64,000 nucleotides of DNA, taken from NCBI GenBank assembly GCA_016223145.1, contig JACRPN010000008.1:119179-183178 (forward strand), in the 5' to 3' direction. Both the position numbers and the translations under genes were made by a program. Positions 14,306 to 61,218 of the stretch are shown one piece after another (the stretch's first letter is position 1; every line of letters begins with the position of its first letter). The DNA comes from Armatimonadota bacterium. GTDB taxonomy: Bacteria; Armatimonadota; Fimbriimonadia; Fimbriimonadales; Fimbriimonadaceae. The notes beneath the pieces are model-generated. The model was not told the origin of the DNA. It did not search any database and saw only the letters and a list, made by a program, of their open reading frames with translations.

Positions 14306-14402
14306 TTGAGCCCCTCCTTGTTTTGGTATGTGGATGGGCAAGGGGTTTGAAGCCACCTCCTCGTTTTGGTTCGCAAATACGGAGGGGGTTGGGGGGTGGA
14401 GA
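14306..14402. repeat. hairpin repeat family D, copy 1 (double)
   Basis: This is a CCCCTCC...GTTTTGGT...GCAAGGGG arrangement followed by CCTCCTCGTTTTGGTTCGC, then GGAGGGGGTTGGGGGGTGG. The two arms pair to a long hairpin around a TTCG-containing loop. Related elements are at 23975, 32787, 41240, 53872 and within mazG at 57345. Confidence 0.65.
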
Positions 14403-14486
14403 CATAACTCCGAGTCCCTTTATCCGTTGTCCCCCTGTCCCTGCGCCCTGATATACTCTCCAGTCAAGAATCCCAGGAGAACGATG

Positions 14487-23974: not shown

Positions 23975-24035
23975 GGACGAAGCCCCCTCCTCGTCTTCGC
24001 GCAGCGAAAATGAGGAGGGGGTTGGGGGTGGAGGC
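23975..24035. repeat. hairpin repeat family D, copy 2
   Basis: CCCCCTCCTCGTCTTCGCGC pairs with GCGAAAATGAGGAGGGGG to make a long stem, followed by TTGGGGGTGGAGG. It lies between the MalF-type permease and the next minus-strand gene and could act as a terminator. Confidence 0.75.
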
Positions 24036-24870: not shown

Positions 24871-25366
24871 GTTCACCTAATGGTTCGCCCTTCCCTGATC
24901 GTCTGATGGGCTGGACGGTGTGCATTTGCTTTGACGAACCGGGGCCCCATTTGGATCATTAGGTCCTAAAGAGGCCCGCTGATACAGCCCGACTGCTCGG
25001 GTTCCGTGCCGGCGTTGACAGTTCAGGGGCTCCACTCGGGATGAATGAAATCGGGTAGCCGCCGGTTCCGTGCCGGCGTTGGCAGTCTAGGAGCTTCACT
25101 CGGGATGAATGAATTCGGGTAGCCGCCGGTTCCGTGCCGGCGTTGACAGTTCAGGGGCTCCACGCCAGGTCCGCAGATTTTCCGCAAAGAGCGCAGAGGG
25201 GTGCTCATGGGCTCTGTGGACGTTCGCGTTAGGAGAGCTCCCAGGCGTCCTCAGGATCTGCTCTGCGTCCTCTGCGAGAGAGTCTCAAGACCGGAGTCCA
25301 CGCAATGCCGCGATAAGAACGCCATAAGGACCGGCGCTGAGAGACCTAGACCTGCAATGAAACGGG
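24871..25366. other. noncoding gap with tandem family B array and GCGTCCTC-type text
   Basis: No gene is supported. The gap holds the 64-base tandem array (25000-25162). It then has GCGTCCTC/CTCTGCG-type words and GCAAAGAGCGCAGAGG (25163-25295), which resemble the intergenic text at 50770-51010. Confidence 0.65.
25000..25162 (-). repeat. tandem array of a 64-base unit carrying family B palindrome
   Basis: GGTTCCGTGCCGGCGTTG begins at 25000, 25064 and 25128, giving an exact 64-base period and about 2.5 copies. Each complete unit contains the palindrome CGCCGGTTCCGTGCCGGCG and a GAATGAA-rich spacer. The copies differ at a few positions. Confidence 0.9.
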
Positions 25367-32742: not shown

Positions 32743-33004
32743 AGGGATGAGGTGGTGAAGAGATGATGGGATGATGGGAATGTCTCCACCCCCAACCCCC
32801 TCCTTCCCGACACGTCGGGACTCGGAAGCATTTACGAACCAAAACGAGGAGGGGGCTCCGGAATCGCGCGTCGCCTCTCACCTTGCGCCTCTCGCCTCAT
32901 CTCCCCTCCCTGTCACCTCATCCCCTCCCCTCATCTTTCAAAATCCCTGGGCCATAGGGATAATCTGGGACTTACCGGCGTTCCATAATAGAAGAAGGCA
33001 TCTC
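32743..33004. repeat. gap with heptad tracts and family D hairpin, copy 3
   Basis: GATGAGG/GATGGGA-type 7-base units (32745-32785) lead into CCACCCCCAACCCCCTCC, a GACACGTCGGGAC loop region and ACGAGGAGGGGGCTCC (32787-32862). Then comes a C/T-rich tract with CCTCTCACC/CCTCATC units (32866-32940). Confidence 0.65.
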
Positions 33005-33502: not shown

Positions 33503-36500
33503 ATGGTTCAATATCTGCGAAAAATGTTTGATACATCCAAGAAGGATGTAGAGGCGTTGTATCCGGTCGTCGATCAGATCAATGCGTTCGAGCCCGCCTT
33601 GGAGGGGCTCACCGACGATCAGCTCAGGGCCAAGACCGACGAGTTTCGGGACCGCCTCAAATCCGGCGCGACCCTAGACGACATCCTTCCTGAAGCTTTT
33701 GCCGCCGTTCGCGAAGCCAGCAAGCGCACCCTCGGCATGAGGCACTTCGACGTCCAGATGATGGGCGGCATCGTGCTGCACAACGGCCGCATCTCTGAGA
33801 TGAAGACTGGTGAAGGCAAGACCCTCGTCGCCACGCTCGCAATGTATCTGAACGCCATCGATGGCCAGGGCTCGCACCTTGTCACGGTCAACGACTACCT
33901 CGCCCGACGCGACGCCGTCTGGATGGGCCCGATCTACCATGCCCTGGGCCTCACCGTTGGCATCATCCAGGGCCAAAGCGAGGATTCCGACGAACTCGGC
34001 GGCAGCTACCTTTATACGCCCGGCGCCGACGTGGCGGGCGACCCGCGCTACGTCAACCTCGTGCCGTGCGAGCGCCGCCAGGCCTATCTCTGCGACATCG
34101 TCTACGGCACCAACCACGAGTACGGATTCGACTATCTGCGCGACAACATGGCGTTCCAGAAGGAGCATCTCGTGATGCGCCAGCTCAACTTCGCCATCGT
34201 CGACGAGGTGGACTCGATCCTGATCGACGAAGCCCGAACGCCCCACATCATCAGCGGCCCCTCGAACGACGACGTCAGCTACTACAAGATGATCGATGAA
34301 GTGGTCAAGAAGCTGCAGCCGGAGATTCACTTTACGGCGCAGAAGAAGGACCACCAGGTCTCCATGACCGAAGAGGGCATGGACTACGTGGAAGAGCTGA
34401 TGGACGTGGACAACATGGCCAACGACCCCAAGCTCATGCACCACGTGAACGCGGGCGTGAAGGCCTATGCGCTCTTCGATAAGGACGTGGACTACGTCGT
34501 ACGCGGAAGGGAAGTGGTGCTCGTGGACGACAACACCGGCCGCCTGATGTTCGGCCGCCGGCTGTCGGACGGCCTGCACCAGGCGCTCGAAGCGAAAGAG
34601 GGTGTTCCCGTTCAACGAGAGAGCCAAACCGTCGCGGTCATCACCTTCCAGAACCTATTCCGCCTCTACGACAAGCTCGCCGGCATGACCGGTACCGCCA
34701 AGACGGAAGAGGACGAGTTTCGAAAGATCTATGGCCTGGACGTGGTCACCATCCCCACGCACCGCGACATGATCCGAACGGACCACCCGGACATCATTTA
34801 CAAGACGCTCGAAGCCAAGTTCCGGGGCATTGCCTGGGAGATCATGCGGCTGTTCGTCAAGCAGCAGCCGGTGCTCGTGGGCACGCGCTCGATCGAGATG
34901 TCGGAACGCGTTTCGGCCCGGCTGACCAGCGAAATGCTGCAAAAGATGGTGCTCGCTTCCAAGCTGCGCTGGCATTCCGAGGTCAAGAAGGACATGCCGA
35001 AAGACCTCAAGACGGATGCGGCCAAGCTGATCGAGCAAGACCTTGATGCGGTTTCGGTTAAGGAGTTTGGCGCGATCCTGGTCAAGATGGGCCAGAGCGG
35101 CGACCCTCTATCCGCCGAGGTCATGGATTGGGCGCTGAAAGAGTTCGAGCTCACCTCGGACAACAAGGAGTATTGGGACGAGGCGATCAGAAAGGGCATC
35201 CCGCACAGCGTTTTGAACGCGAAGTTCCACGAGAGGGAGGCGTTGGTCATCGCCGAAGCGGGCCGGAAGGGCCAGATTACGATCGCCACCAACATGGCAG
35301 GTCGAGGCGTAGACATTCTGCTGGGTGGGCGCATCTTCGACGAGCAGATCGACCTCGCTCGCAAATCGAAGGGCGACGTCGAACTCGAATCGGGCGCCGG
35401 TGGCGGGTTCCGACGTGGCGGCAACACCGAGCGCGCAGCCCCCCCGCTTCCCCTGGATGACCAAGAGCGGCGAGGCCTCGCCGAAGAGGTCCGCAAGCTC
35501 GGCGGACTCTACATTCTGGGCACCGAGCGCCACGAGGCCAGGCGCATCGACAACCAGCTTCGCGGCCGATCGGGCCGTCAGGGCGACCCGGGCGAGAGTC
35601 GGTTCTTCGTATCGCTGGAAGACATGCTCTGGAAGATCTTCAACGCGAACATGCTCGAAAATCCGCTGCTGAAGGCTTGGCCGCCGATGGAGCAGGTGGA
35701 CGCCAAGTTCCTATCCGGAATGATCCGCAAAACCCAAGAAAGGATCGAGCATCACTTCTTCGAGGCTCGAAAGCACGTGTTGGAGTACGACGACGTGCTG
35801 AACGCCCAGCGCGAGAAAATCTACTCGATGCGCCGCGACATCCTGATGGGCAAGCATGTGCGTGAAGACCTTCAGGGCTACATCGACCAGATGGTCGTCG
35901 ACGTGGTGCACGGCTGCTTCACGTACGATGAGAATCAGGCGCGCCAAGCATTCGACTTCGACACGCTCTATTCGGAGCTCAACGAGCTTTTCCCACTCGT
36001 GGACTACGCAACCGTGGACGAGCTGAAGGAATTGGGGCCGGGCGACGCCTTGGACCGGCGTTGCATCGAACTGGCGCACCAGGCCTATGAAGACAAGGCC
36101 AACAGCCTTGGCGAAGACGTCATGGGCTGGTTAGAGCAGCACGTCATGCTTCGCGCTGTGAATGACAAGTGGATGGACCACCTGCAGATGGTGGACTACA
36201 TTCGCGAGGGCATCGGCCTGCGCGGCTACGGCCAGGTGGACCCGCTGATCGCCTACAAGCGCGAGACGTTCGACCTCTTCGAGGGCACGCTCAGACAGAT
36301 CAGGGAGCAGGCGGTTCGAATGATCTATCACGCGAACGTGCAGGTCAACCAAGAGCAGCCCCAACAGCCGCAGGAAGCTGCGCCGCAGATGCAACGCATC
36401 GACGATGCAGACCTCGCAGCCGGCGACGTGGCTCAAGCCATCACCGGATCTCGCAGCGTAGCCGCCGGTTCCATGCCGGCGACGAGCGGCGACCTTTCGC

Positions 36501-41238: not shown

Positions 41239-41372
41239 GTCTCCCTCTCCAACCCCTCCCTCAGTTTCGCTTCGCAAAACCAAGGGAGGGGCTCATCTCG
41301 CCTCGCCCCTTGTGGGAGAGGCTGGTGCCTGCCCCGGTTCAAACGGGGAGCTGCGCAAACCAAGGGAGGGGC
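41239..41372. repeat. hairpin repeats of families D and E
   Basis: CCAACCCCTCCCTCAG, TTTCGCTTCGCAAAAC and AAGGGAGGGGCTCATC form a stem-loop (41248-41301). CGCCTCGCCCCTTGTGGGAG follows, then a second AAGGGAGGGGCTCATC (about 41361-41376). It may terminate asnA. Confidence 0.6.
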
Positions 41373-48374: not shown

Positions 48375-50384
48375 ATGAATCGAACAGTCAAATTCCTTGG
48401 CGGGTGCCTCCTCATCCTGTCGCTTGCGAATGCCGGATTTTCCCAATCGAAGCTGCTGACGCGCGACACGTTCTTCGAGATGGAATCGGTCGGCAGCCCG
48501 CAGATCTCCCCCGACGGCACCAGCGTCCTGTTTACGCGAACCGGCATTGACAAAGTCAAGGACTCCTCGGCGAGCAACCTCTGGATCACCGATGCCAAAG
48601 GCGAGCGAACCCGGCAGCTGACGGAGGGCGGCTGGCGGGACAGCGGCCCTGTCTGGTCGCCCGATGGCAAGCGCATCGCGTTCCTCTCGGATCGGGACGG
48701 CACGACCCAGCTTTATGTAATGTGGCTGGACACGCGCGAGATCGCCAAGCTCACCAACAGCGAACGCACGCCGGGCGGCGTGGTCTGGTCGCCAGACGGC
48801 AGGCAACTCGCCTACACCCAGTTTGAGCCCGACCGCGATCCGATCCTGGCGATCAAGCTGCCCGAGCGGCCCGCCGGGGCCACATGGGCGAAACCTCCGA
48901 CGCTGGTGAATCGGCTCTCCTGGGGGCAAGATGGCGTTGGGCCAACTCAACCGGGAACGAGCCAGATCTATGTGCTCGACGCCATTCTTGGCGGCACGCC
49001 ACGCAAGGTAACGAGCGGGGCTTTCTCCTTCGGTTCGCCAAGTTGGTCCAAGGACGGCAAGACCCTGTTCGCCTCGGCCACCAAGGTGCCGGACGATGAC
49101 TGGACTAAGGGAGCGGGCGAGATCTATGCCATCGAGGCACAGACCGGGGCGATGTCCGCGCTCACCGATCGCAAGGGCCCCGACAGCGGTCCCACGGTCT
49201 CCCGGGACGGCAAATGGATCGCCTACACGGGATTCGATCACAAGGACTTCACGAGCCACCTTTCGAGCCTTTACTTGATGGACACGAAAGGCGCCGGGAA
49301 GAAGGTGCTCGCCACAGGCCTGCCCAACTCACCGTCAGGGGCGACGTGGGCGCCCGACAGTTCGGGCGTTTACTTCCTGATGGGCAAAGAGGGCAGCACC
49401 AACCTCTGGTTCGTCTCGCTCGAGGGCAAGATCTCGGAGATCACCAAGGGTGTCCAGCAGCTCGGAGGTTTTTCGCTCTCCGACAATGGAACCGTCGCGA
49501 CGGTCCGTTCGACCTTCACGAATCCCGGAGTCTTGAGCGTGTTCAGCCTTCGGCGTGCGAGCGATATGCTGGAGTTGGTCGACGTCAACAAGGACGTGCT
49601 GTCGGGGGTCAGTCTCTCTACGGCGGAGGAGCTTTGGGCGACCTCGAAAGACGGCCTGAAAGTTCAAGGCTGGCTCGTCAAGCCCGCCAATTATCAGGAA
49701 GGGAAGAAGTTCCCGCTGGTGCTCTGGATTCACGGGGGGCCTTGGTCGATGTACGGCATCGGCTGGAGTTGGCCGTTCCAGAACTGGGCCGCAGAGGGCT
49801 ACGGCGTCCTCTTTACGAACCCACGCGGCAGCACGGGCTACGGCCAGGACTTCGTGAACGGCATCCAATACAGCTATCCGGGCAAGGACTATGACGACCT
49901 GATGGCCTGTGTGGACGCGGCCGTGGCGAAGGGATGGGTCGACCCAAAGAACCTCTTCGTCTGCGGGGGGAGCGGGGGCGGGTGCCTCACCGCCTGGATT
50001 GTAGGGCACACCGACCGGTTCGCCGGGGCGTGCGCGATGCGCCCGGTGATTGACTGGATCTCCTTCAACGGGACCACCGACGGAGGACGGTTCTGGTACG
50101 ACCAGTTCGAGAAGCTGCCCTGGGAGGACCCCACGGACCATCTGAAGCGCTCGCCGCTCACGTACGTCAGCAACGTGGTGACGCCGACGATGGTGATGAC
50201 CGGCGAGGCCGACCTGAGGACGCCGATCTCGCAGAGCGAGGAGTTCTATCGGGCAATGAAACTCTTGAAGAAGGACACGCTGCTGGTGCGGATGCCTGAT
50301 GAGTTCCACGGCTGGCGCCGGCCGAGCCATCAATTGATGCAGCAGCTTTATCTGATGGCGTGGTTCGAGAAGCACAAGAGGTGA
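48375..50384 (+). CDS. secreted S9 family peptidase (acylaminoacyl/dipeptidyl peptidase type)
   Basis: The 669-residue protein has a signal peptide (VKFLGGCLLILSLANAGFS). A beta-propeller spans about 40-410 with repeated WSPDGK-type blades (GPVWSPDGKRIAFLSDRDGT, then GGVVWSPDGRQLAYTQ). The C-terminal alpha/beta-hydrolase domain has the nucleophile Ser in VCGGSGGGCLTAWIVGHTDR (usual GGSYGG), the acid Asp in TGEADLRTPI and His in PDEFHGWRRP. Such enzymes cleave short peptides admitted by the propeller. It acts in the periplasm or outside. It is monocistronic; a repeat-rich gap follows. Confidence 0.9.
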   Translation: MNRTVKFLGGCLLILSLANAGFSQSKLLTRDTFFEMESVGSPQISPDGTSVLFTRTGIDKVKDSSASNLWITDAKGERTRQLTEGGWRDSGPVWSPDGKRIAFLSDRDGTTQLYVMWLDTREIAKLTNSERTPGGVVWSPDGRQLAYTQFEPDRDPILAIKLPERPAGATWAKPPTLVNRLSWGQDGVGPTQPGTSQIYVLDAILGGTPRKVTSGAFSFGSPSWSKDGKTLFASATKVPDDDWTKGAGEIYAIEAQTGAMSALTDRKGPDSGPTVSRDGKWIAYTGFDHKDFTSHLSSLYLMDTKGAGKKVLATGLPNSPSGATWAPDSSGVYFLMGKEGSTNLWFVSLEGKISEITKGVQQLGGFSLSDNGTVATVRSTFTNPGVLSVFSLRRASDMLELVDVNKDVLSGVSLSTAEELWATSKDGLKVQGWLVKPANYQEGKKFPLVLWIHGGPWSMYGIGWSWPFQNWAAEGYGVLFTNPRGSTGYGQDFVNGIQYSYPGKDYDDLMACVDAAVAKGWVDPKNLFVCGGSGGGCLTAWIVGHTDRFAGACAMRPVIDWISFNGTTDGGRFWYDQFEKLPWEDPTDHLKRSPLTYVSNVVTPTMVMTGEADLRTPISQSEEFYRAMKLLKKDTLLVRMPDEFHGWRRPSHQLMQQLYLMAWFEKHKR

Positions 50385-51055
50385 GGGGAAGAAGGTCCGG
50401 GGTCCGAGGTCTGAGGCCCGGGGGGCTAACGGACTCATTCCGTATCGCGCATCGCGTGTCGCTCCTGAAGGTCTGAGGTCTGAGGTCCGGGGTCCGGGGT
50501 GCGGGGCCTGAGGCCTGAGCCAGAGAACCACCTCGCCCCTTGGGGAGAGGCGGTGATCGAAGTGAACCGGGTGAGGGGGCATTTAAACCCAACTTCTTCG
50601 TTTCGGAACCTCCACCCCTAACCTCCTCCCCCTATCGCTTCGCGACAGGGTGAGAGGGCGTTTCTCACCTCGCCCCTTGGGGAGAGGCGGTGAACGAAGT
50701 GAACCGGGTGAGGGGGGTGCTCAACGAGTCTGAGACGCTGGTTCGCCGGCACGGAACCGGCGGCTACGGTCCAACGTCTGCGCCCTCTGCGGACCTCGGC
50801 GTCTCTGTGTGAAAGCACTTGGACGAAGGCTCGCCGGCACGGAACTGCGACCTGCCGAGGCAGGCGACACGGCCACCAACCAGACACCTGCGTCCACTGC
50901 GCTACCCTGCGTCCATTGCGAGAATGCTCCAAGCTCGCCGGCACGGAACCGGCGGCTACCGAATAGCCCTGCGCGCCCTGTGGACCTCCGCGTCCTCCGC
51001 GTGAAAGCCCCAATGAAGCCGCGCCCGGCATAATGAGAGCGTCACCGAGGACGCC
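50385..51055. repeat. repeat-dense noncoding region (heptads, families B, E, F)
   Basis: No gene is supported in these 670 bases. In order: GGTCCGA/GGTCTGA heptamers (50391-50515), family E elements with CTTGGGGAGAGGCGGTGA and GAACCGGGTGAGGGGG (50525-50579 and 50660-50716), family B palindromes at 50744-50767, 50832-50855 (degenerate) and 50936-50959. These alternate with CTGCGTCC/TGCGCC/GTGTGAAAGC text (family F). The units are shared with 25000-25295 and 61000-61050. Confidence 0.85.
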
Positions 51056-52666
51056 ATGAAGAAGCCTTTCGTCAGCATCGCCGTTGCCGGAGCCGCCATC
51101 AGCGGAGCGCAAGTTGCCGTGATCCCACAACCCAGTTCCATCCAACCTGCAGAAGGGTCTTTCGAACTCAACCAGTCCACGCGGATCGCGGTGAACAAGG
51201 ACACGGAGGCCGTTGGCGAATTCGCTCGCAGCTACTTCGCGCCGGCAACCGGCTTCGACATGCCGTTAACCCGAGAGACCGGCCCAAACACCATCGACCT
51301 GAAGCTCGACAAGCGACTGTCTGGGCTTGGCGATGAGGGGTATCGGCTCACCGTCAAAAAGGATCGGATCGAGGTTCGCGCGCTCAAGCCCGTGGGCGTC
51401 TTCTACGGCATCCAGACCCTGCGCCAGCTTTTCCCGGCAGACATTTTTCGGAAGGCGCCTGCCTCGCGGAGTTCGTGGACCGTGGGTTGCGTGCACATCG
51501 AGGACAGCCCTCGGTTCGGGTGGCGCGGCGCGATGATCGACTCCGCCCGGCACTTCATGCCCAAAGAGTTCGTGCTGAAATACCTGGACGTTATGGCGTT
51601 CCACAAGCTGAATCGCTTCCATATCCACCTCACCGACGACACCGGATGGCGCATCGAGATTAAACGGTTCCCCGGGCTGACGGGGCGCAGTTCGGGCTCG
51701 GATTTCTCGGAGATGAACCCAAAGGGGGCGACTCGCTCCATCAATCAGAAGCCTGGCGGCTACTACACCCAAGACGACATTCGCGAAATCGTGGCCTACG
51801 CGGCCAAGCGATTTATCACGGTCATCCCCGAGATCGAAATGCCCGGACATGCCAAGGCCGCCATCGACGCTTACCCCGAGCTCGGCAACCTCTCGCAGAT
51901 TCTCCAATTCGGCGATAAGTCCAAGTCTGGTATCTGGAACAACGTTTTCAATGTGGAAGACGATACGATCAAGTTTTTGAAACAAGTGCTGGATGAAGTG
52001 ATGGAGTTGTTTCCATCTCAGTGGATCCATATCGGAGGCGACGAGGTAGACAAAACGCCCTGGAAAAGCAACCCCAAGGCGCAAGAGAAGATGGCCTCAG
52101 TCGGGGCAAAGGACGAGCACGAACTGCAAAGCTGGTTCGTGAAGCAGTTCGATGATTATCTCTCCTCGAAAGGGCGAAGGCTGATCGGTTGGGACGAGAT
52201 CCTGGAGGGCGGGCTCGCCCCCAAGGCCACGGTGATGTCGTGGCGAGGGATGGATGGCGGCATCGCCGCGGCCAAGGCCAAGCACGAGGTGGTGATGGCC
52301 CCGACCACCTACACCTACCTCGACTACTATCAAAGCAAGGACACAAAGGCAGAACCCAAGGCGATCGGCGGCTTCCTGCCGCTCGAAGTGGTCTACCGCT
52401 TCGAGCCTGTGCCTGCAGAGCTATCCGCAGAAGAGGCAAAGTTCATCCTGGGCGGACAGTTCCAACTCTGGACCGAGTTTATCCCTCACCCCAAACACCT
52501 GGAGTACATGACCTTCCCGCGGGGCTGCGCGGTGGCCGAGGTGGTGTGGTCGAAAAAGGAGCTTCGGAACTACCCGGACTTCCTCGTTCGGCTCAATGCC
52601 CAACTCGAGCGGTTCAGGATCATGGACGTCAACTATCGGGCTCTGGATGGTCCCGGGGGGAAGTAG
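51056..52666 (+). CDS. secreted GH20 beta-N-acetylhexosaminidase
   Basis: The 536-residue protein starts with a short signal peptide (KKPFVSIAVAGAAISGAQV). It has an N-terminal GH20b domain (PQPSSIQPAEGSFELNQSTR) and the GH20 barrel: RGAMIDSARHFMPKEFVLKY, FHIHLTDDTGWRIEIKRFPG, and the catalytic Asp-Glu pair in HIGGDEVDKTPWKSN. Conserved VMSWRGMDGG and WTEF segments follow. It releases terminal GlcNAc or GalNAc from chitin fragments or glycoconjugates by substrate-assisted catalysis. It belongs with the other glycosidases in this window. Confidence 0.95.
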   Translation: MKKPFVSIAVAGAAISGAQVAVIPQPSSIQPAEGSFELNQSTRIAVNKDTEAVGEFARSYFAPATGFDMPLTRETGPNTIDLKLDKRLSGLGDEGYRLTVKKDRIEVRALKPVGVFYGIQTLRQLFPADIFRKAPASRSSWTVGCVHIEDSPRFGWRGAMIDSARHFMPKEFVLKYLDVMAFHKLNRFHIHLTDDTGWRIEIKRFPGLTGRSSGSDFSEMNPKGATRSINQKPGGYYTQDDIREIVAYAAKRFITVIPEIEMPGHAKAAIDAYPELGNLSQILQFGDKSKSGIWNNVFNVEDDTIKFLKQVLDEVMELFPSQWIHIGGDEVDKTPWKSNPKAQEKMASVGAKDEHELQSWFVKQFDDYLSSKGRRLIGWDEILEGGLAPKATVMSWRGMDGGIAAAKAKHEVVMAPTTYTYLDYYQSKDTKAEPKAIGGFLPLEVVYRFEPVPAELSAEEAKFILGGQFQLWTEFIPHPKHLEYMTFPRGCAVAEVVWSKKELRNYPDFLVRLNAQLERFRIMDVNYRALDGPGGK

Positions 52667-52859
52667 AAATACGGGACAAAAGGACAAATGGACATCCGGA
52701 TAGGCCCCTCGGGCCTGAGCCAACGTTCTGATGCCGCGGCCCCCAATCCAGGCCTTCGGCCTTCGTGCGACAGGTCTGTTCTACGTGCCAGAACCTCACC
52801 CAAGTCGAACCACACATCGTGCTCCAATCGCTCCATTTCGGGTAACCCTTCCATTAACC
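52667..52859. repeat. short gap with palindromic words
   Basis: GGCCCCTCGGGCC (52703-52716) and CCAGGCCTTCGGCC (52749-52763) resemble words at 7864 and 3773. No start with GH130 similarity is seen before 52860. Confidence 0.5.
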
Positions 52860-53870
52860 ATGTCCAGCGTCAAAGTCGTCGGTTCTGCCATTCCAAACCT
52901 CCCCTGGGAGGATCGCCCAAGCTCCCAGAGTGGCCAAAGCCAGGGGGACTTCGGCCGGCCCGTGTGGCGCTACAGCAAGAACCCGATCATCCCGCGCGAC
53001 GCGACTCCTAGCTCGAACAGCATCTTCAACAGCGCCGCCGTGTCGTTCGAGGGCAAGTTCGCGGGAGTGTTCCGCTGCGACAGCCGCCGCCGCGAGATGG
53101 TGCTTCATGCCGGCTTCAGCGACGACGGCTACAAATGGAACCTCGACCATGAACCGATCCAGTGGAAGTACGCCGACCCGGAGATCGAGCCGCCGCAATA
53201 CGGCTATGATCCGCGCGTCTGCTGGATCGAGGACCGCTACTGGGTGACCTGGTGCAGCGGATTTCACGGGCCCAGCATAGGGATCGGCTACACGACAGAC
53301 TTCAAGTGCTTCACGATGCTGGAGACGGCGCTCATGCCGTTCAACCGAAACGGCGTGCTGTTTCCGAGGAAGATCGGCGGGCGGTACATGATGCTCAGCC
53401 GCCCCAGCGACAACGGGCACACGCCGTTCGGCGAGATTTTCCTTTCTCAGAGCGAAGACATGATCCACTGGGGCCGCCACCGGTGGGTGATGCGCCAGAA
53501 GCAGCCTTGGGAGAGCACGAAGATTGGCGCCGGTCCCGTGCCGATCGAGACCAGTGAGGGCTGGCTGATGTTCCACCACGGCGTGCTCACAAGCTGCAAC
53601 GGCTATGTCTATAGCTGGGGCGCCGTGCTGCTCGATCTGGACAAGCCCTGGAAGGTGGTCGCCCGCTGTGCGCCGTACCTGATCTCGCCTCAGATGCCCT
53701 ACGAATGTGTCGGCGATGTGCCGAACGTGACCTTCCCGTGCGCGGCGCTCTGCGACGCGCCGAGCGGCAAGGTGGCAGTCTACTATGGCGGCGCGGACAC
53801 GGTGACCTGCCTGGCGTTCGGCTACGTGCAGGAAATCGTGGAGTACATCAAGGCGAATAGTGAGGTTTGA
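52860..53870 (+). CDS. GH130 family glycoside phosphorylase/hydrolase
   Basis: The start is ATG 52860; the open frame extends 43 codons upstream without family character. The 336-residue protein shows the five-blade propeller motifs of GH130: [78 protein letters not shown] and [20 protein letters not shown]. The catalytic Asp is expected in the first part of the domain. GH130 enzymes mostly phosphorolyse or hydrolyse beta-mannosides, including those of N-glycan cores. No signal peptide is seen, so it acts in the cytoplasm on imported disaccharides, fitting the sugar ABC permeases. Confidence 0.93.
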
Positions 53871-53871
53871 G

Positions 53872-53927
53872 GAAAGCCCCGCCCTCGTTTTGGTTCGTAA
53901 ATGAGGGAGGGGTTGGGGAGGGAGATG
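53872..53927. repeat. hairpin repeat family D, copy 5
   Basis: GCCCCGCCCTCGTTTTGGTT and GAGGGAGGGGTTGGGGAGGG form the family D stem-loop with a TTCGT loop. It lies just downstream of the GH130 gene. Confidence 0.7.
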
Positions 53928-54004
53928 CGACCGAGCGAACCCGCCTCCGGTAAAATGAACCCTCCGAGCGACGGGGCGCGGCCGCCGTAGCGCGGCATAT
54001 TCCC

Positions 54005-54742
54005 ATGAAAATCCTTGTCCCCGTCAAACGCGTACCTGACCCCTATGCCAAGGTGCGCGCGCTTCCCGATGGCAGCGGGCTCGACCTCTCCTCGATCAAG
54101 TGCGAGATCAATCCCTTCGACGAAATCGCCCTCGAAGAGGCCGTTCGCATCAAAGAGCGCGACCCAAGCGCTGAGGTGGTCGCCGTTTCGATCGGTGGTG
54201 GGGAGAGCGAAGAGCAGCTCCGCAAGGCACTCGCCATCGGGGCCGACTCGGCCATTCTGATCGAATCTCCAAGCAAGTTTGATTCTGCCGGCGTGGCGGG
54301 CGAACTCGCAGCCTTGGCAAGCGAGTTGAAGCCTGACCTGATCCTCATGGGCAAGCAGGGCACCGACGACGACAACGCGCAGGCGGGCCCGATGCTCGCC
54401 GCCAAGCTCGGCTGGCCCCAGGCCACGTTCGCCTCGAAAATCGAGATTGGCGGGGGCAAGGCGACGGTGACGCGCGAAACCGATGACGGTTCGGAGACCC
54501 TGGAGCTTCCACTCCCATGCGTCATCACCGCAGATCTTCGACTCAACGAGCCGCGGTATGTGGCCCTGCCCGGCATCATCAAGGCGCGCAGCAAGCCTCT
54601 CGAAAGGCGCCCCTCCACGACAAATCCGACCCCAATGACGAGGAGCTTACGTTTCGAAGCGCCGCCCCCACGGGCGGCGGGCCGAAAGGTCGGGTCGGTC
54701 GATGAACTCGTCGCCGCGCTCAAGGATAGGGGGTGCCTCTGA
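54005..54742 (+). CDS. etfB: electron transfer flavoprotein subunit beta
   Basis: The 245-residue protein matches EtfB: KILVPVKRVPDPYAKVR at the start, CEINPFDEIALEEAVRIKER, and LILMGKQGTDDDNAQAGPML, which bears the AMP/FAD-contact region. With EtfA it carries electrons from acyl-CoA and other flavin dehydrogenases to the quinone pool. No ETF-quinone oxidoreductase is in the window. Its stop overlaps the etfA start by one base (TGATG), so the two are translationally coupled. Residues about 205-225 (RSLRFEAPPPRAAG) are a somewhat longer, Pro-rich stretch than usual. Confidence 0.95.
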   Translation: MKILVPVKRVPDPYAKVRALPDGSGLDLSSIKCEINPFDEIALEEAVRIKERDPSAEVVAVSIGGGESEEQLRKALAIGADSAILIESPSKFDSAGVAGELAALASELKPDLILMGKQGTDDDNAQAGPMLAAKLGWPQATFASKIEIGGGKATVTRETDDGSETLELPLPCVITADLRLNEPRYVALPGIIKARSKPLERRPSTTNPTPMTRSLRFEAPPPRAAGRKVGSVDELVAALKDRGCL

Positions 54743-55629
54743 TGTCCAAGACGCTCTTGATCGCTTTTCAGGGTTCGGACTCCCAACGCGCCGCCGCCTT
54801 CGGGCAGTCTCTGGGGCAGCCCTACGACATCCTCGTGCTCAACGGCAAACCGGAGCTGGGAACCGGCGCCTCGCGGCTCATGGCTGCAGGGCTCTCGGAG
54901 GCCCCACTTGCTGATGCCCTAGCGCCGGCCCTCGCCGAGATCGCCAAGGGATATAGCCACGTTGCTGCGCTGACCTCCATGCAAGCCAAGGACGTTTTGC
55001 CGCGGATGGCGGCGCTTATGGGAGCGCCCATGATCACCGACGTGGCCGAGACCGTATCCGCAACCGTCTTCAAGCGCCCGGTGGTTGCCGGTTCACTCGT
55101 CGAGACCGTCGAGGTCCTGCAAATTCCTGTCGTGCTCACGTTCCGCTCGGCGGGCTATGCTTTTTCGCCTGGCGCCGAACCTACCCCGGAGTCAGTCAGC
55201 CTTTCTTTGGCCGGCGCCACCAAGCGGATCGCGTCGTCCGGAAAGCATGGCGGCAGACCCGATCTCTCGCAGGCCCGCGTCGTCGTAAGCGGTGGCAGGC
55301 CGCTCAAAGACGCCGCCACGTTCGAGCAGGTGATCGGGGGCCTTGCTGACGCGCTCGGAGGCGCCGTCGGCGCGACGCGCGCCGCAGTGGACAGCGGAAT
55401 CGCGCCGAACGAGCTTCAGGTGGGCCAGACAGGCAAGATCGTTGCGCCGGAGCTTTACATTGCGGCAGGAATCTCGGGGTCCACCCAGCACATGGCGGGC
55501 ATCAAGGACAGCAAGACGATCGTCGCGATTAACACCGACGCCCAAGCTCCTATATTCGAAATTGCGGATCTCGGGCTCGTGATGGACCTCTACCAGGCGA
55601 TTCCTGAGCTCAGGAGTAAGCTGGGATAG
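54742..55629 (+). CDS. etfA: electron transfer flavoprotein subunit alpha
   Basis: ATG 54742 overlaps the etfB stop. The 295-residue protein has the FAD-binding C-terminal domain: VVVSGGRPLKDAATFEQVIG, GATRAAVDSGIAPNELQVGQ, and APELYIAAGISGSTQHMAG followed by KTIVAINTDAQAPIFEIADL. This is standard EtfA length and order. EtfA holds FAD and passes electrons to the membrane in beta-oxidation or amino-acid catabolism. The next gene follows after about 100 bases. Confidence 0.96.
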   Translation: MSKTLLIAFQGSDSQRAAAFGQSLGQPYDILVLNGKPELGTGASRLMAAGLSEAPLADALAPALAEIAKGYSHVAALTSMQAKDVLPRMAALMGAPMITDVAETVSATVFKRPVVAGSLVETVEVLQIPVVLTFRSAGYAFSPGAEPTPESVSLSLAGATKRIASSGKHGGRPDLSQARVVVSGGRPLKDAATFEQVIGGLADALGGAVGATRAAVDSGIAPNELQVGQTGKIVAPELYIAAGISGSTQHMAGIKDSKTIVAINTDAQAPIFEIADLGLVMDLYQAIPELRSKLG

Positions 55630-55735
55630 CGGTTCGAGTATCCTCAATCGTCGGCGTTTGGGATCACTTCACGCGGTCCCGTTCGTTTGATAACATGGAG
55701 TACTCGCCTTCGCGCGGGGTCCTGTGGAGGCCTGG

Positions 55736-56707
55736 TTGCTAAAGTCCGTCTTTCTCGTCGTCGCCGTCGCCGTTTCGTCCCTTGGCCTCGGCCAGATCGA
55801 CCCGGCGCGGGTCATCGCCGTTGTCAATGGTGAGGAAATCAAGGCCGCCGAGTACTACCGCTACATGGAGTACATGGACCTCAAGGAGCCCTACTCCAGG
55901 TTCCGAAACATGATCTTCAACTTTCCGGCGGGCTTCCTGGCGCTCGACCAACTCATGACCCAGCGCATGATGACGCAGCTTGCAAAGGCACGCAACGCGG
56001 TGCCTTCCGAGCCCGAAGTCAACGCCGAACTTCAGAACTACCTTGCCGACTTCCCGGAAACCGTCAAGGACTGGAAGGACAAGGGCCGCACCGACGCAGA
56101 GCTCAAAGACCGGGTGCGGTTCGACCTGCTTTCGTTCAAGCTTCAAACCCAGGGGATCACCGTCACCGACCTCGAGGTGGAGAAGCACTACAAGGACAAT
56201 CTGGCCTCATTCACCACACCCAAGCTCTATAAGCTGAGGGTCATCGTGGCGACGGACGCCGGCACACGGGACAAGGTGGACGCCGAGCTCAAGGCAGGAA
56301 AGGCCTTCGCCGAGGTGGCGCGCCAATACAGCGACGACATCTCTCGAGTGAGCGGCGGCGAATATGGCTCAGTCGCCCTGACGACGCTGCCCGAGCCGAT
56401 CGCCAAGGCCATCCAGGCCACACGCATCGGCGAATCGACCGGGTGGGTCGAGTTCCAGAAGAACTCGGTACGTTTCTACCTCGATGACGTGACCCCCGAG
56501 AAGGTCGCGACGCTGGATGCCAGGCTCAAGCGGACAATACGCAAGAACCTCATGCTGACCAGCGGGCGCGTGAAAATCGACCTTGGAAAACTCCTCGGCG
56601 AGTTCCGGCTGAAGTCCAAAGTCGACATCAAACAGAAGGACTTTGCCTCGATCTACGCCAAGCTGATGGAGGTCCAAAGCACTGCCAAGACGGGCTCCGG
56701 GGGTTGA
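55736..56707 (+). CDS. exported PpiC/SurA-like peptidyl-prolyl isomerase/chaperone
   Basis: The start is taken as TTG 55736 because GGAGG ends five bases upstream; the GTG at 55724 overlaps that site. The 323-residue product has a signal peptide (KSVFLVVAVAVSSLGLGQI). A SurA-N-like helical domain spans about 25-145 (VIAVVNGEEIKAAEYYRYME). A parvulin-type domain follows (SFTTPKLYKLRVIVATDAG, then GKAFAEVARQYSDDISRVSG). It ends in a helical tail. The fold is a periplasmic chaperone or isomerase assisting exported proteins. Its stop overlaps the mazG start by one base. The catalytic parvulin residues look only partly kept. Confidence 0.8.
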   Translation: MLKSVFLVVAVAVSSLGLGQIDPARVIAVVNGEEIKAAEYYRYMEYMDLKEPYSRFRNMIFNFPAGFLALDQLMTQRMMTQLAKARNAVPSEPEVNAELQNYLADFPETVKDWKDKGRTDAELKDRVRFDLLSFKLQTQGITVTDLEVEKHYKDNLASFTTPKLYKLRVIVATDAGTRDKVDAELKAGKAFAEVARQYSDDISRVSGGEYGSVALTTLPEPIAKAIQATRIGESTGWVEFQKNSVRFYLDDVTPEKVATLDARLKRTIRKNLMLTSGRVKIDLGKLLGEFRLKSKVDIKQKDFASIYAKLMEVQSTAKTGSGG

Positions 56708-57633
56708 TGGCGCCAGAACCCGGCTCCGATCTCGCCCTTGATTCTCAGACAGGCCAGGAACTGGCGCGGCTCGTCGCCATCGTGGACCGCCTGCTCGGCC
56801 CGGGCGGCTGCCCGTGGGACCAGGAACAGACCCACGAGACGTTGAAGCGCCACCTGCTGGAGGAGTGCTATGAGGTCTTTGACGCCATCGACTCCGGCGA
56901 TCCAGACAAGCTGCGAGAGGAACTCGGCGACCTCCTGCTGCAGCCGATCATGCACGCGCAGATGGAAGCGAGGGACGGGCGGTTCTCGTCTCGGGATGTT
57001 GCCGCGTCGATCTGTGAGAAGCTGATCCGGAGGCACCCGCACGTGTTCGGGCCCCTAAGAGTCGAGGACGCCGACGAGGTCCTGAGGAACTGGGACAGGA
57101 TCAAACAAGAAGAAAAGTCGGGCGAACCTGCGTCGATCTTGGAGGGCGTTCCAAAGAGCCTTCCGGCGTTGCACAGGGCCTTTGAGGTCAGCAAGCGCGC
57201 AGCAAGGGTGGGGTTCGAGTGGCCCGATCTGGACGCCGTATTCGCCAAGCTGGACGAAGAGGTCGCGGAGCTGAAGGAGGCGATCCGCCAATCTGCCTCT
57301 CCCCTTGAGGGAGAGGTCGGTGAGCGAAGCGAACCGGGTGAGGGGGAAGGTCCCCCACCCAAACCCTACCCTCATTTCGGCGAGCCGAAACAAGGAAGGG
57401 GCTCCTCAGATGCCATCGCTGCGGAAATCGGCGACCTGCTCTTCACCGCTGTCAACATCGCTCGCTGGACAGGCGTGGAGCCTGAGGAGGCGCTGAGGCA
57501 GATGGTGCTCAGGTTCGAGTCCAGGTTCAGAGCGATGGAGGTGGCGACGACGAAGCCGCTTCGTGAACTGTCGCCGAAGGAATGGGACGGCCTCTGGGAG
57601 CGGGCCAAGTCGGCTGAGGCCTCTTTCGAGTGA
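56707..57633 (+). CDS. mazG: nucleoside triphosphate pyrophosphohydrolase MazG
   Basis: ATG 56707 overlaps the previous stop (TGATG). The 308-residue protein has both MazG halves: LLGPGGCPWDQEQTHETLK with LLEECYEVFDAID and ELGDLLLQPIMHAQM, then WPDLDAVFAKLDEEVAELKE and EIGDLLFTAVNIARW. MazG hydrolyses NTPs to monophosphates in nucleotide housekeeping and stringent control. E. coli MazG is 263 residues. The extra length is mostly residues about 197-234, encoded by an in-frame insertion of dispersed repeats (57296-57408) placed exactly between LKEAI and the second EIGDLL motif. Confidence 0.95.
   Translation: MAPEPGSDLALDSQTGQELARLVAIVDRLLGPGGCPWDQEQTHETLKRHLLEECYEVFDAIDSGDPDKLREELGDLLLQPIMHAQMEARDGRFSSRDVAASICEKLIRRHPHVFGPLRVEDADEVLRNWDRIKQEEKSGEPASILEGVPKSLPALHRAFEVSKRAARVGFEWPDLDAVFAKLDEEVAELKEAIRQSASPLEGEVGERSEPGEGEGPPPKPYPHFGEPKQGRGSSDAIAAEIGDLLFTAVNIARWTGVEPEEALRQMVLRFESRFRAMEVATTKPLRELSPKEWDGLWERAKSAEASFE
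57296..57408 (+). repeat. compound repeat (families E and D) inserted in frame in mazG
   Basis: CTCTCCCCTTGAGGGAGAGG then GGTGAGCGAAGCGAACCGGG (family E) is followed by CCCACCCAAACCCTACCCTC ... GGAAGGGGCTCCTC (family D). The same modules occur in noncoding DNA at 50525, 50660, 41248 and 53872. Here they are read as a SPLEGEVGERSEPGEGEG-like peptide without a stop. Confidence 0.9.
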
Positions 57634-57664
57634 CGGCCAAATGGGCATCAAGTAACATCCATTC

Positions 57665-58750
57665 ATGCTCGCTGCACTAGCCGGTCTGCTTGTGACGGCC
57701 AAGGACCAACCGATCCTGGTCGATCTAGCCGGCGAGACGTCGCGCCAGATCGTCGTGGACCGCCAGCAGGGCCAATATCTGGGGCACGTCAGTACCCTTC
57801 TGCTTGAGGACCAGAGGACAATTCTCGCCGTGTATCCAAGGGGACATGGCCGGGGAGCAATCGTCTTCAAGAGGAGCCCAGACGGCGGAAAGACATGGAG
57901 CTCTCGCCTACCGTTGCCTGAGAACTGGGCGACCAGCCTTGAAACACCCACGATCCACCGGGTCATCGATCCCAAATCGGGAAAGAAGCGCCTCATCGTC
58001 TGGTCTGGTCTCTATCCTGCGCGGCTCGCCGCAAGCGAGGACGATGGCCGCTCTTGGAGTCCGCTAAGGCCCGCAGGAGATTGGGGAGGCATCGTGGTCA
58101 TGGGTTCGGTCGAGCGCCTAAAGAACGGTGATTACGCTGCCTGGTTCCACGACGACGGACGGTTCTTTTCCAACTCGGGCAAAGCCACGAAGACCTTCTC
58201 GCTCTACCAGACGCTGTCGCACGATGGCGGCCTCACTTGGGCCTTTCCCAAGGCCATCTGGTCTGGCTCGGAGTTGCACCTATGTGAACCAGGCGTCATC
58301 CGCTCTCCAAAGGGAGAGCAGATCGCGATGCTGCTCAGAGAGAACCGCCGCACTGGGCGCAGCTATCTGATGACCTCGAACGACGAGGCCAAGTCTTGGT
58401 CAGAGCCCAAGGCTCTGGCCTGGGACTTGACCGGCGATCGCCACACCCTGCGCTACGCTGCCGACGGCCGACTGGTCGCCGTGTTCCGCAGCATGGCGGA
58501 CGATGCCTGGAAGGGCGACTTTGTGGCCTGGGTGGGACGCTACGAAGATCTTTCCGCCGCCAAGCCAGGGGATTTCCGAGTACGACTGCTCGACAACAAG
58601 GACAGTTGGGACTGCGGCTATCCAGGGTTGGAGCGGGTCTTCGACGGGGCCTTCGTGGCCACGACCTATGGGCATTGGGACAAGGGAGAGGAGCCGTACA
58701 TCGTGAGCGTGCGCTTTCGGCTGAAGGACCTTGTCACCAAGGACCGATAA
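57665..58750 (+). CDS. sialidase-like BNR/Asp-box protein
   Basis: The 361-residue protein has a short signal-like N-terminus (MLAALAGLLVTAKDQ) and a six-bladed-propeller pattern with Asp-boxes: SPDGGKTWSSR, SEDDGRSWSP, SHDGGLTWAF and SNDEAKSWSE. RSPKGEQIAMLLRENRRTG carries Arg residues that could serve the sialic-acid-type arginine cluster. Such proteins include exo-sialidases and other glycoside-binding propellers. The Tyr/Glu nucleophile pair was not confirmed, so catalysis is uncertain. It follows mazG by 31 bases and could be in the same transcript. Confidence 0.75.
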   Translation: MLAALAGLLVTAKDQPILVDLAGETSRQIVVDRQQGQYLGHVSTLLLEDQRTILAVYPRGHGRGAIVFKRSPDGGKTWSSRLPLPENWATSLETPTIHRVIDPKSGKKRLIVWSGLYPARLAASEDDGRSWSPLRPAGDWGGIVVMGSVERLKNGDYAAWFHDDGRFFSNSGKATKTFSLYQTLSHDGGLTWAFPKAIWSGSELHLCEPGVIRSPKGEQIAMLLRENRRTGRSYLMTSNDEAKSWSEPKALAWDLTGDRHTLRYAADGRLVAVFRSMADDAWKGDFVAWVGRYEDLSAAKPGDFRVRLLDNKDSWDCGYPGLERVFDGAFVATTYGHWDKGEEPYIVSVRFRLKDLVTKDR

Positions 58751-58843
58751 CTTAGGAGGGCGTCGTTCGCGGTCCTGGCAGGCCCTGCCCGATGGGACCC
58801 GGCCATGTCAAAATAGTCCGTGCAGAACGTCGACGGAGCCGCC

Positions 58844-60061
58844 ATGCAAACCACCCACACCGAATCCCTATCACAGCACCACATCGAGCTCACAGAGCGC
58901 TGGGCAGCGCACAACTATCACCCGTTGCCCGTGGTGATCGTCGAAGGGAAGGGTGCGTGGGTCACCGATGCCGACGGCAAGAGATACCTAGATTGCCTAT
59001 CGGGATACAGCGCGCTCAATTGGGGCTACTCGCCGGAGCGTTTCCTCAAGACGGCGCACGAACAGCTAGACAAACTAACTTTAACGAGCCGCGCCTTCAT
59101 GAACGATCAGCTTGGCGTGTTCTGTGAGCACCTTGCCAAGTTTTGTGGCAAAGAGGCGGTCCTCCCGATGACGACCGGCGCCGAGGCCGTCGAAACGGCG
59201 ATAAAGTTGAGCAGACGTTGGGGCTACGAGAAGAAAGGCGTGCCGGAAGGGAAAGCAGAGATCATTACCTTCGAGCGAAACTTCGCCGGCCGCACGACCA
59301 CGATCGTGAGCTTCGCGGACCCGGGTGAGGCCAAACAGAACTTCGGACCCTACACCGACGGTTTCGCTAGGGTTCCATATGGAGATTTGGAGGCGGTGTT
59401 GGGCGCCATTACGCCGAACACCGTGGCCGTGCTGATCGAGCCGATCCAGGGCGAGGGCGGTGTCAACATCCCGCCACCCGGATACATGAAGGCGCTTCGC
59501 GAGGCTTGCACTCGCGAAAATGTCCTACTGATCGCCGACGAGATTCAGACCGGATTCTGCAGGACCGGCAAAGTCTTCGCCTGTGAGCACGAGGGTATCG
59601 AACCGGATCTCATCTTGATGGGTAAGGCGCTCGGCGCCGGGATCACGCCGATCTCTGCGGTCGCTGCCAACTGGGACGTGATGGAGGTCTTCCGGCCAGG
59701 TTCTCACGGGAGCACCTATGGAGGCAACCCCCTTGCCTGCGCCGTTGCGATCGACGTGCTCCGATACATCGAGGAGGAGCACCCCGAGCGCCGCGCCACG
59801 GAGCTCGGCGATTGGCTCATGGCCGAACTGCGCACCCAAAGCTTCCGCAAGGTCAAGGAGGTTCGGGGCCGGGGCCTCATGATCGGCGTGGAGATCAGGC
59901 AAGAGTTCGGGAAGGCGTATCCGATTTGTGAAGAACTGGCCTCGCTGGGAGTCCTAACCAAGGACACCCGGAGTTCCACCATGCGCCTGACACCGCCGCT
60001 GATGATCGAGAAGTCCGACCTGGAGTGGGCCCTTGATCAGCTCGCCAAGGTCCTGGACTAG
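58844..60061 (+). CDS. rocD: ornithine--oxo-acid aminotransferase
   Basis: ATG 58844 has GGAG seven bases upstream, so the GTG 58820 extension is rejected. The 405-residue class III PLP enzyme has YLDCLSGYSALNWGYSPER, the MTTGAEAVETAIKLSRRWGY helix, LIEPIQGEGGVNIPPPGYMK, ADEIQTGFCRTGK, and the PLP lysine in ILMGKALGAGITP. The Tyr and Gly-rich N-terminal region (HNYHPLPVVIVEGKGAWVTD) is typical of ornithine aminotransferase. It converts ornithine to glutamate semialdehyde, for proline or glutamate. An acetylornithine transaminase is less likely on these motifs. Confidence 0.93.
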   Translation: MQTTHTESLSQHHIELTERWAAHNYHPLPVVIVEGKGAWVTDADGKRYLDCLSGYSALNWGYSPERFLKTAHEQLDKLTLTSRAFMNDQLGVFCEHLAKFCGKEAVLPMTTGAEAVETAIKLSRRWGYEKKGVPEGKAEIITFERNFAGRTTTIVSFADPGEAKQNFGPYTDGFARVPYGDLEAVLGAITPNTVAVLIEPIQGEGGVNIPPPGYMKALREACTRENVLLIADEIQTGFCRTGKVFACEHEGIEPDLILMGKALGAGITPISAVAANWDVMEVFRPGSHGSTYGGNPLACAVAIDVLRYIEEEHPERRATELGDWLMAELRTQSFRKVKEVRGRGLMIGVEIRQEFGKAYPICEELASLGVLTKDTRSSTMRLTPPLMIEKSDLEWALDQLAKVLD

Positions 60062-60905: not shown

Positions 60906-61218
60906 GGAGCGCTGATTGGTGGCACGGGATACTTGGAGGCTGTGGCAGCCTGCTTTTGGACCTCTCGCAAAGAGGCCAAGGCGCAAAGGAACGCGAAGCC
61001 GGGAGCCCCTCACCCCCGTTCACTTCGTTCACGGACCCTCTCCCACGATGGGCGAGGGGGTACAGCGCCTCATGCGTCTTTCGGCCCTCGTCATCCGAAA
61101 GTCGTAAATCGTAAACTCCGATTCGTCATCCGACAATCGCCACTCGACATTCGTCATTCGAAAATCGTAATTCGTAGTTTCCGAATCGTCTTTCGTCAAT
61201 CGTCAATCGTCAATCCCT
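60906..61218. repeat. repeat-rich gap (family E-like and CGTCAAT heptads)
   Basis: An inverted family E-like module (CCCCTCACCCCCGTTCACTT, then GTTCACGGACCCTCTCCC) occupies 61006-61052. A striking CGxxxxT 7-base-period tract covers 61080-61217: CGACATT CGTCATT CGAAAAT CGTAATT ... CGTCAAT CGTCAAT CGTCAAT. Nothing coding is seen. Confidence 0.85.

Follow-up and report, generated by a model that had tools for sequence, protein, structure and literature searches.

How does an enzyme gene come to contain, between two of its catalytic motifs, DNA of a kind that is otherwise scattered as short palindromic repeats, and what becomes of this DNA in the protein? The question is raised by mazG in a 64,000-nucleotide stretch (the window) from an Armatimonadota bacterium of the Fimbriimonadaceae. 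The open reading frame at 56707-57633 (+) encodes an insert-bearing nucleoside triphosphate pyrophosphohydrolase of 308 amino acids, with matches to Pfam MazG (PF03819, E 3.7e-37), to NCBIfam NF007113 (288.6 bits, cut-off 208) and TIGR00444 (likewise above cut-off), and to E. coli MazG (3cra, E 1.1e-54). An initial annotation had seen in it a compound of two repeat modules, and here we report that both are present, module A scoring 79 bits and module B 63 bits with their own family models. The parts are arranged as follows:

57294-57401, + strand: inserted stretch in mazG, 108 nt or 36 codons, borders good to within a few codons
57293-57347, + strand: module A, a palindromic repeat (model R1, 79 bits)
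57296-57316, + strand: first hairpin of module A, CCTCTCCC-CTTGA-GGGAGAGG
57318-57336, + strand: second hairpin of module A, CGGTGAGCGAAGCGAACCG, with the core GCGAAGC at 57324-57330
57350-57403, - strand: module B, an inverted palindromic repeat (model R2, 62.9 bits)
57336-57360, + strand: joint of A and B, where GGGTGAGGGGG pairs with CCCCCACCC in the fold of 57291-57411

Module A is thus followed, after a spacing of 2 bases, by module B in inverse orientation. As had been proposed, the compound lies between the LKEAI and EIGDLL motifs, that is, between the catalytic ExxE (LKEAI) and ExxD (EIGD) motifs of the second MazG domain, and so between the two helices that bear the catalytic residues of this domain. 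The frame stays open across 57290-57411, with neither stop nor frameshift, as the initial annotation had it, and the inserted DNA encodes the peptides ASPLEGEVGER and SEPGEGEGPPPKPYPHFGEPK.

Comparison with other MazG proteins speaks to whether this loop is native. MazG is present in 59 of the 61 genomes searched, this one counted among them. The matches nearly always break off around residue 196 and pick up again around residue 233, and hardly any DNA separates the two parts, which is the clean gap that an insertion had been expected to leave. In an alignment of 108 sequences spanning Armatimonadota to Firmicutes the loop has 12 amino acids in 71 sequences and 48 here, giving a gain of 36 codons, one residue short of the earlier estimate of about 37. 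The same loop written in unrelated codons in distant MazG proteins would have spoken for an ancestral feature; instead the other long loops, of 36 amino acids in Schlesneria and 23 in Paenibacillus alvei, are unrelated to the insert in sequence. Two distant groups with unrelated longer loops of their own indicate that this site tolerates changes in length. The alignments thus identify the loop in this mazG as an insertion and not as an ancestral feature. The alignment shows no variation in the columns of the catalytic residues E185, E188, E240 and D243, and an AlphaFold model built on a 30-sequence alignment (mean pLDDT 85) places residues 199-227 below pLDDT 50, flanked by the intact helices 175-197 and 233-255. 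With its frame kept open, the insert probably ends up in the protein as an additional floppy loop.

Each module is about 55 bp long and the compound about 110 bp. The compound (57291-57411) folds better than its shuffles, with z ~ -3.1 for RNA and DNA alike. Among copies of module A, 97.8% of cells are paired and 16 cells are changed on both sides, against 3.6 in shuffles (0 of 500 shuffles reach this), and the covariation collapses once the partner is slid; for module B 93.5% are paired, with 8 double changes against 2.4 in shuffles. Compensatory changes in the second hairpin of A include CGG/CCG, CCG/CGG and CAG/CTG. In 84 regular copies of A this hairpin has a GNA triloop in 72 and a fully paired three-base stem, of several pair types, in 71. 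Single-stranded DNA with a GNA triloop, like the heptamer d(GCGAAGC), is exceptionally stable, and an intermediate of folded DNA is favoured for this reason. An Rfam scan of 50000-59000 gave no match even at E 1.

Further copies occur in the window:

50528-50580, + strand: module A, intergenic
50665-50717, + strand: module A, intergenic
61005-61060, - strand: module A, intergenic, variant CCGTGAACGAAGTGAACGG
53875-53926, + strand: module B, intergenic
41239-41293, - strand: module B, intergenic
23981-24035, + strand: module B, intergenic
14351-14403, + strand: module B at the 5' end of a predicted gene, whose true start may lie downstream
32782-32857, - strand: module B, its hairpin holding a third, nested palindrome, CTTCCGAGTCCCGACGTGTCGGGAAG

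Covariance models run over the 3.87 Mb genome, a draft of 97% completeness, found at least 148 copies of A and at least 95 of B at E <= 0.001, or together some 250 dispersed copies; the modules that the initial annotation had wished to see counted are hence not a product of chance. Copies of A or B also stand at the contig ends C4:236453, C20:99006, C22:151722 and C17:17 of the host genome (G000), so that the repeats probably break the assembly and these counts are minima. The listed copies (n=243) comprise 183 between genes, 49 in genes and 11 at gene ends. The earlier view that the modules are seen elsewhere only in gaps therefore holds for the window and fails for the genome, where 20% of listed copies lie inside predicted genes. 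Between genes, 72 copies are in convergent and 21 in divergent gaps, and the elements lie mostly downstream of genes, at their 3' ends. An A falls within 150 bases of a B 18 times among the listed copies, where about one such case is expected under random placement and where a shared preference for gaps explains part of the excess.

The distribution among relatives is patchy. Of the two congeners one has no copy of module A and the other 2, while G019 (a genome of another genus) has 43 and G013 and G016 have 19 each; module B has 45 in G019, 26 in G013 and 24 in G012. Like these four genomes, G018 belongs to the Fimbriimonadaceae in which A or B is abundant. In a sample of the phylum, A was detected at E <= 1e-4 in 12 of 151 genomes, and a search for A on plasmids of other bacteria found none. 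In G019 the A-type elements, whose stems carry compensatory changes (CTGTGAACGAAGTGAACAG), likewise occur within predicted genes without breaking the frame. One of these genes (L382, C3:508031-510685) reads like uvrA, a name given by eye only.

mazG is one of 32 genes in which 40 of the 49 in-gene copies have coding signal on both sides, as called by a codon model trained on the window with repeats masked; the model is simple and its requirement for an open frame is partly circular. NCBIfam names most of these genes: TrmD, PheT, XerC/D, HemW, Era, biotin carboxylase, 6-phosphogluconate dehydrogenase, UbiE/MenG, AlaRS, IleRS, LeuRS, GlnRS, AcnA (aconitase), RdgB, a DnaE-like protein and others, with two of the in-gene stretches (g14 and g15) belonging to a single gene, alaS. 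For all 13 conserved genes tested, the genome holds just one copy and that one bears the insert; for XerC and AccC there are clearly distinct paralogues besides. The relatives' matches for these 13 genes break at the insert, and the gap is clean also for XerC, AlaRS, IleRS, Gnd, MenG, LeuRS and others; in the two relatives compared nothing matched GlnRS. By alignment, XerC with its one A has a net gain of 19 codons, AlaRS with A and inverted B, as in mazG, one of 44, IleRS one of 39 and Gnd one of 42. With 31 further genes bearing a like insert, in addition to the clean gap, the copy number and the covarying hairpins, the RPE-like in-frame insertion first suggested for mazG is supported.

Some sites do not appear to be simple additions when their sequences are aligned, namely those of PheT and AcnA and the C-terminal copy in AlaRS. 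PheT gains 8-9 and AcnA 14-16 codons, which is below the length of one element, so that either part of a native loop has been replaced or the aligner has shared columns between loop and element. At the C-terminal copy of B in AlaRS (L264, alaS, C11:137623-137678) about 50 native codons are missing relative to relatives, which suggests either an element-associated in-frame deletion or a collapse of the assembly; the missing codons include a CGGTHV-like motif of the editing domain. Other repeats may be translated as well. A further dispersed module, read as LHPQPPPPIASRQGEG or similar, adjoins B inserts at L235, L311, L333 and L257 (g08, g27, g30 and g13), DEGTEGQ and SDPSDKSD stretches resemble other translated repeats, and a glycosidase-like protein (L176:3-2567, g01) has tandem GSVPASKGFAPVAAGLQPASG units that look like translated palindromes of another family.

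Copies are strongly depleted from genes, which hold 20% of those listed against 83% coding DNA in the genome. When the remaining copies were passed through the filter for coding signal on both sides, along one strand, one frame-shifted case was retained, against 10 of 43 in-frame cases, indicating that broken genes are rare. The frames themselves are used unevenly: two of the five open frames of A account for 20 of 23 in-gene copies, with the peptide TSPLxGEVGERSEPGEG encoded 13 times, PSPGS.. 7 times and others once each. Depletion and frame bias together fit the removal of harmful insertions, and the frame bias is also compatible with a target preference.

Based on these observations, we consider it very likely, leaving the identity of the mover aside, that dispersed palindromes were inserted into mazG and the other genes and are carried there as near-neutral passengers. 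In this reading A and B are two families of short non-autonomous palindromes, similar to REPs and RPEs, that would spread as folded single-stranded DNA and be moved or copied in trans by some enzyme. Insertions that break a gene would be lost, and those that bring 3n stop-free bases into a flexible surface loop could persist as translated passengers.

It might be argued instead that the inserts are adaptive, the hairpin or the Glu/Pro/Ser/Gly-rich loop having taken on a part in regulation or in protein interaction across many genes. Stable hairpins could affect mRNA, and the concentration of A peptides in two of five open frames would be in keeping with such a role; the same bias is expected, however, if the other frames are harmful, and the functions of the genes and the sites of insertion are unrelated, copies are depleted from genes, the loops are predicted to be disordered and the inserts are absent from all relatives compared. 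We regard recruitment as improbable. Some yeast mitochondria have hairpin elements that are bypassed, and strong hairpins within essential genes invite the thought that ribosome skipping or RNA removal keeps the inserts out of the proteins. Stops and frameshifts would then be tolerated, yet they are nearly absent (the one frame-shifted against ten in-frame cases), and the frames used are biased, making this reading very improbable. That mis-assembly or binning joined repeats into genes is scarcely credible: several copies do stand at contig ends, but random mis-joining cannot yield in-frame inserts in 32 genes with matching halves on both sides.

A different kind of alternative concerns the mover, and holds that A and B are ordinary REPs with degenerate tags that owe their movement to RAYT transposases encoded in this genome. 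Of its 12 Y1_Tnp genes, two or more are flanked by GTAG-tagged palindromes (GTAGCCGCCGGTTCCGTGCCGGCG, GTAGCCCAGGCGTCTCGCCTGGG), and a loop like GAGCGAAGCGAA lies near one RAYT (L152). Against this, A and B bear neither a GTAG nor a CGTC tag and are near no RAYT, so that we think this alternative unlikely. In the form in which RAYT genes are flanked by A or B it was rejected, as no copy of either lies within 1.5 kb of the 12 Y1 transposase genes; nor was any transposase bracketed by two copies in the stretches fetched around them. The GTAG palindromes beside Y1 genes point instead to ordinary REP/RAYT pairs that coexist with A and B. These RAYT-flanking palindromes were seen at L157 and L156 (G000 C10:37844-38113 and C9:2795-2971), and the family of GTAGCCGCCGGTTCCGTGCCGGCG recurs in the window at 25054-25142, 36457-36482, 50743-50768 and 50935-50960. 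A 64-nt tandem repeat at 25000-25191, in three copies (91% and 66% identical to the first), also holds a GTAG palindrome.

Returning to dispersed-palindrome insertion, the claim that the repeat is mobile draws on how many copies there are, how patchily they are distributed and how they nest; the search for a mobilising enzyme turned up none. Our leading guess for the mover, a tentative one, is a Y1/HUH transposase acting in trans. Long copies of A and B hold further palindromes at fixed positions in their hairpins. CTTCCGAGTCCCGACGTGTCGGGAAG is found in B and in the first hairpin of A, the second hairpin of A can hold GCCTGCCCCGGTTCCATCGGGGA or TCGAAGATCCCGCGCCTTACGGGAC, and in one case a B replaces the first hairpin of an A (nesting loci L241:1475-1553, L246, L205, L174, L209, L255, L216 and L312, and 32782-32857 in the window). 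It is conceivable, though we rather doubt it, that the Fimbriimonadaceae harbour modular palindromes that invade genes and insert into, or replace, one another's defined hairpins, A with its conserved GNA triloop among them. If true, such a system would point to an undescribed mobilisation of single-stranded DNA in which hairpins are the targets and essential coding sequence is colonised at scale.

Colonisation of genes by selfish in-frame palindromes, best known in Rickettsia, thus extends to an Armatimonadota genome of 3.9 Mb, where 32 genes or more are affected, with AlaRS, IleRS, LeuRS, GlnRS and PheT among the housekeeping genes. How new disordered protein segments arise and what moves the repeats can now be tested in another lineage, which offers many independent cases. 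Such inserts would be overlooked by automatic annotation, or the loops read as native sequence.

Several known systems invite comparison. As recounted in PMC2229807 and PMC10969869, the RPEs of Ogata et al. 2000, 2002 are dispersed palindromes, many of them in frame inside conserved genes, and an RPE-bearing Gmk, a protein that was tested, is translated and active (PMC2229807). A and B resemble RPEs in this behaviour, which is what was compared. They differ in length, at ~55 bp against RPE units of 105-146 bp (PMC2229807), in their unrelated phylum and in forming two families often side by side. GTAG/CGTC REPs are short palindromes that often form dimers of opposite orientation and lie between genes that converge or run in one direction (Di Nocera et al. 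2013, PMC3733652); some occur inside genes in Opitutus, Xanthomonas, Thauera and others, including tRNA synthetases, most often in Opitutus terrae and R. conorii, with uvrA among the targets in O. terrae (PMC3733652). A and B are likewise short palindromes, some in tRNA synthetase genes, but their consensus has no GTAG at the hairpin foot and no CGTC at either end, they flank no RAYT gene at the 12 Y1_Tnp loci, unlike GTAG REPs, and their copies contain nested palindromes, unlike either REP type. In the literature searched, no report links REPs with Armatimonadetes. The terminal inverted repeats of TIRYT/RAYT genes have a GGGGWSAS motif, can be self-complementary and form dimers (PMC3733652); some copies of A hold GGGGAGAG or GGGGTGAG, which match this motif, whereas here none of the Y1 transposase genes stands between two copies of A or B. 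In-frame fusion to ORFs is also known for ERIC, RU-2/YPAL and Correia elements (107-168 bp), most of which show MITE traits, target-site duplication for example (PMC2229807). A and B are shorter, and like them are small, non-autonomous and open to translation within a protein; set against MITEs they are palindromic, and neither a target-site duplication nor an empty site was seen at the nucleotide level, the nearest relatives being too diverged for the junctions to be read. Their copy number, covarying hairpins and frame-keeping copies absent from orthologues place A and B among in-frame intragenic palindromes in general, a kind already known from the RPEs of Rickettsia and the intragenic REPs of Opitutus and others. 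What is new is the lineage, the two families without tags and the compound they form side by side, together with the nesting and the count of essential genes affected: in-frame insertion, known from Rickettsia and a few other bacteria, is extensive in this genome and involves new repeat families.
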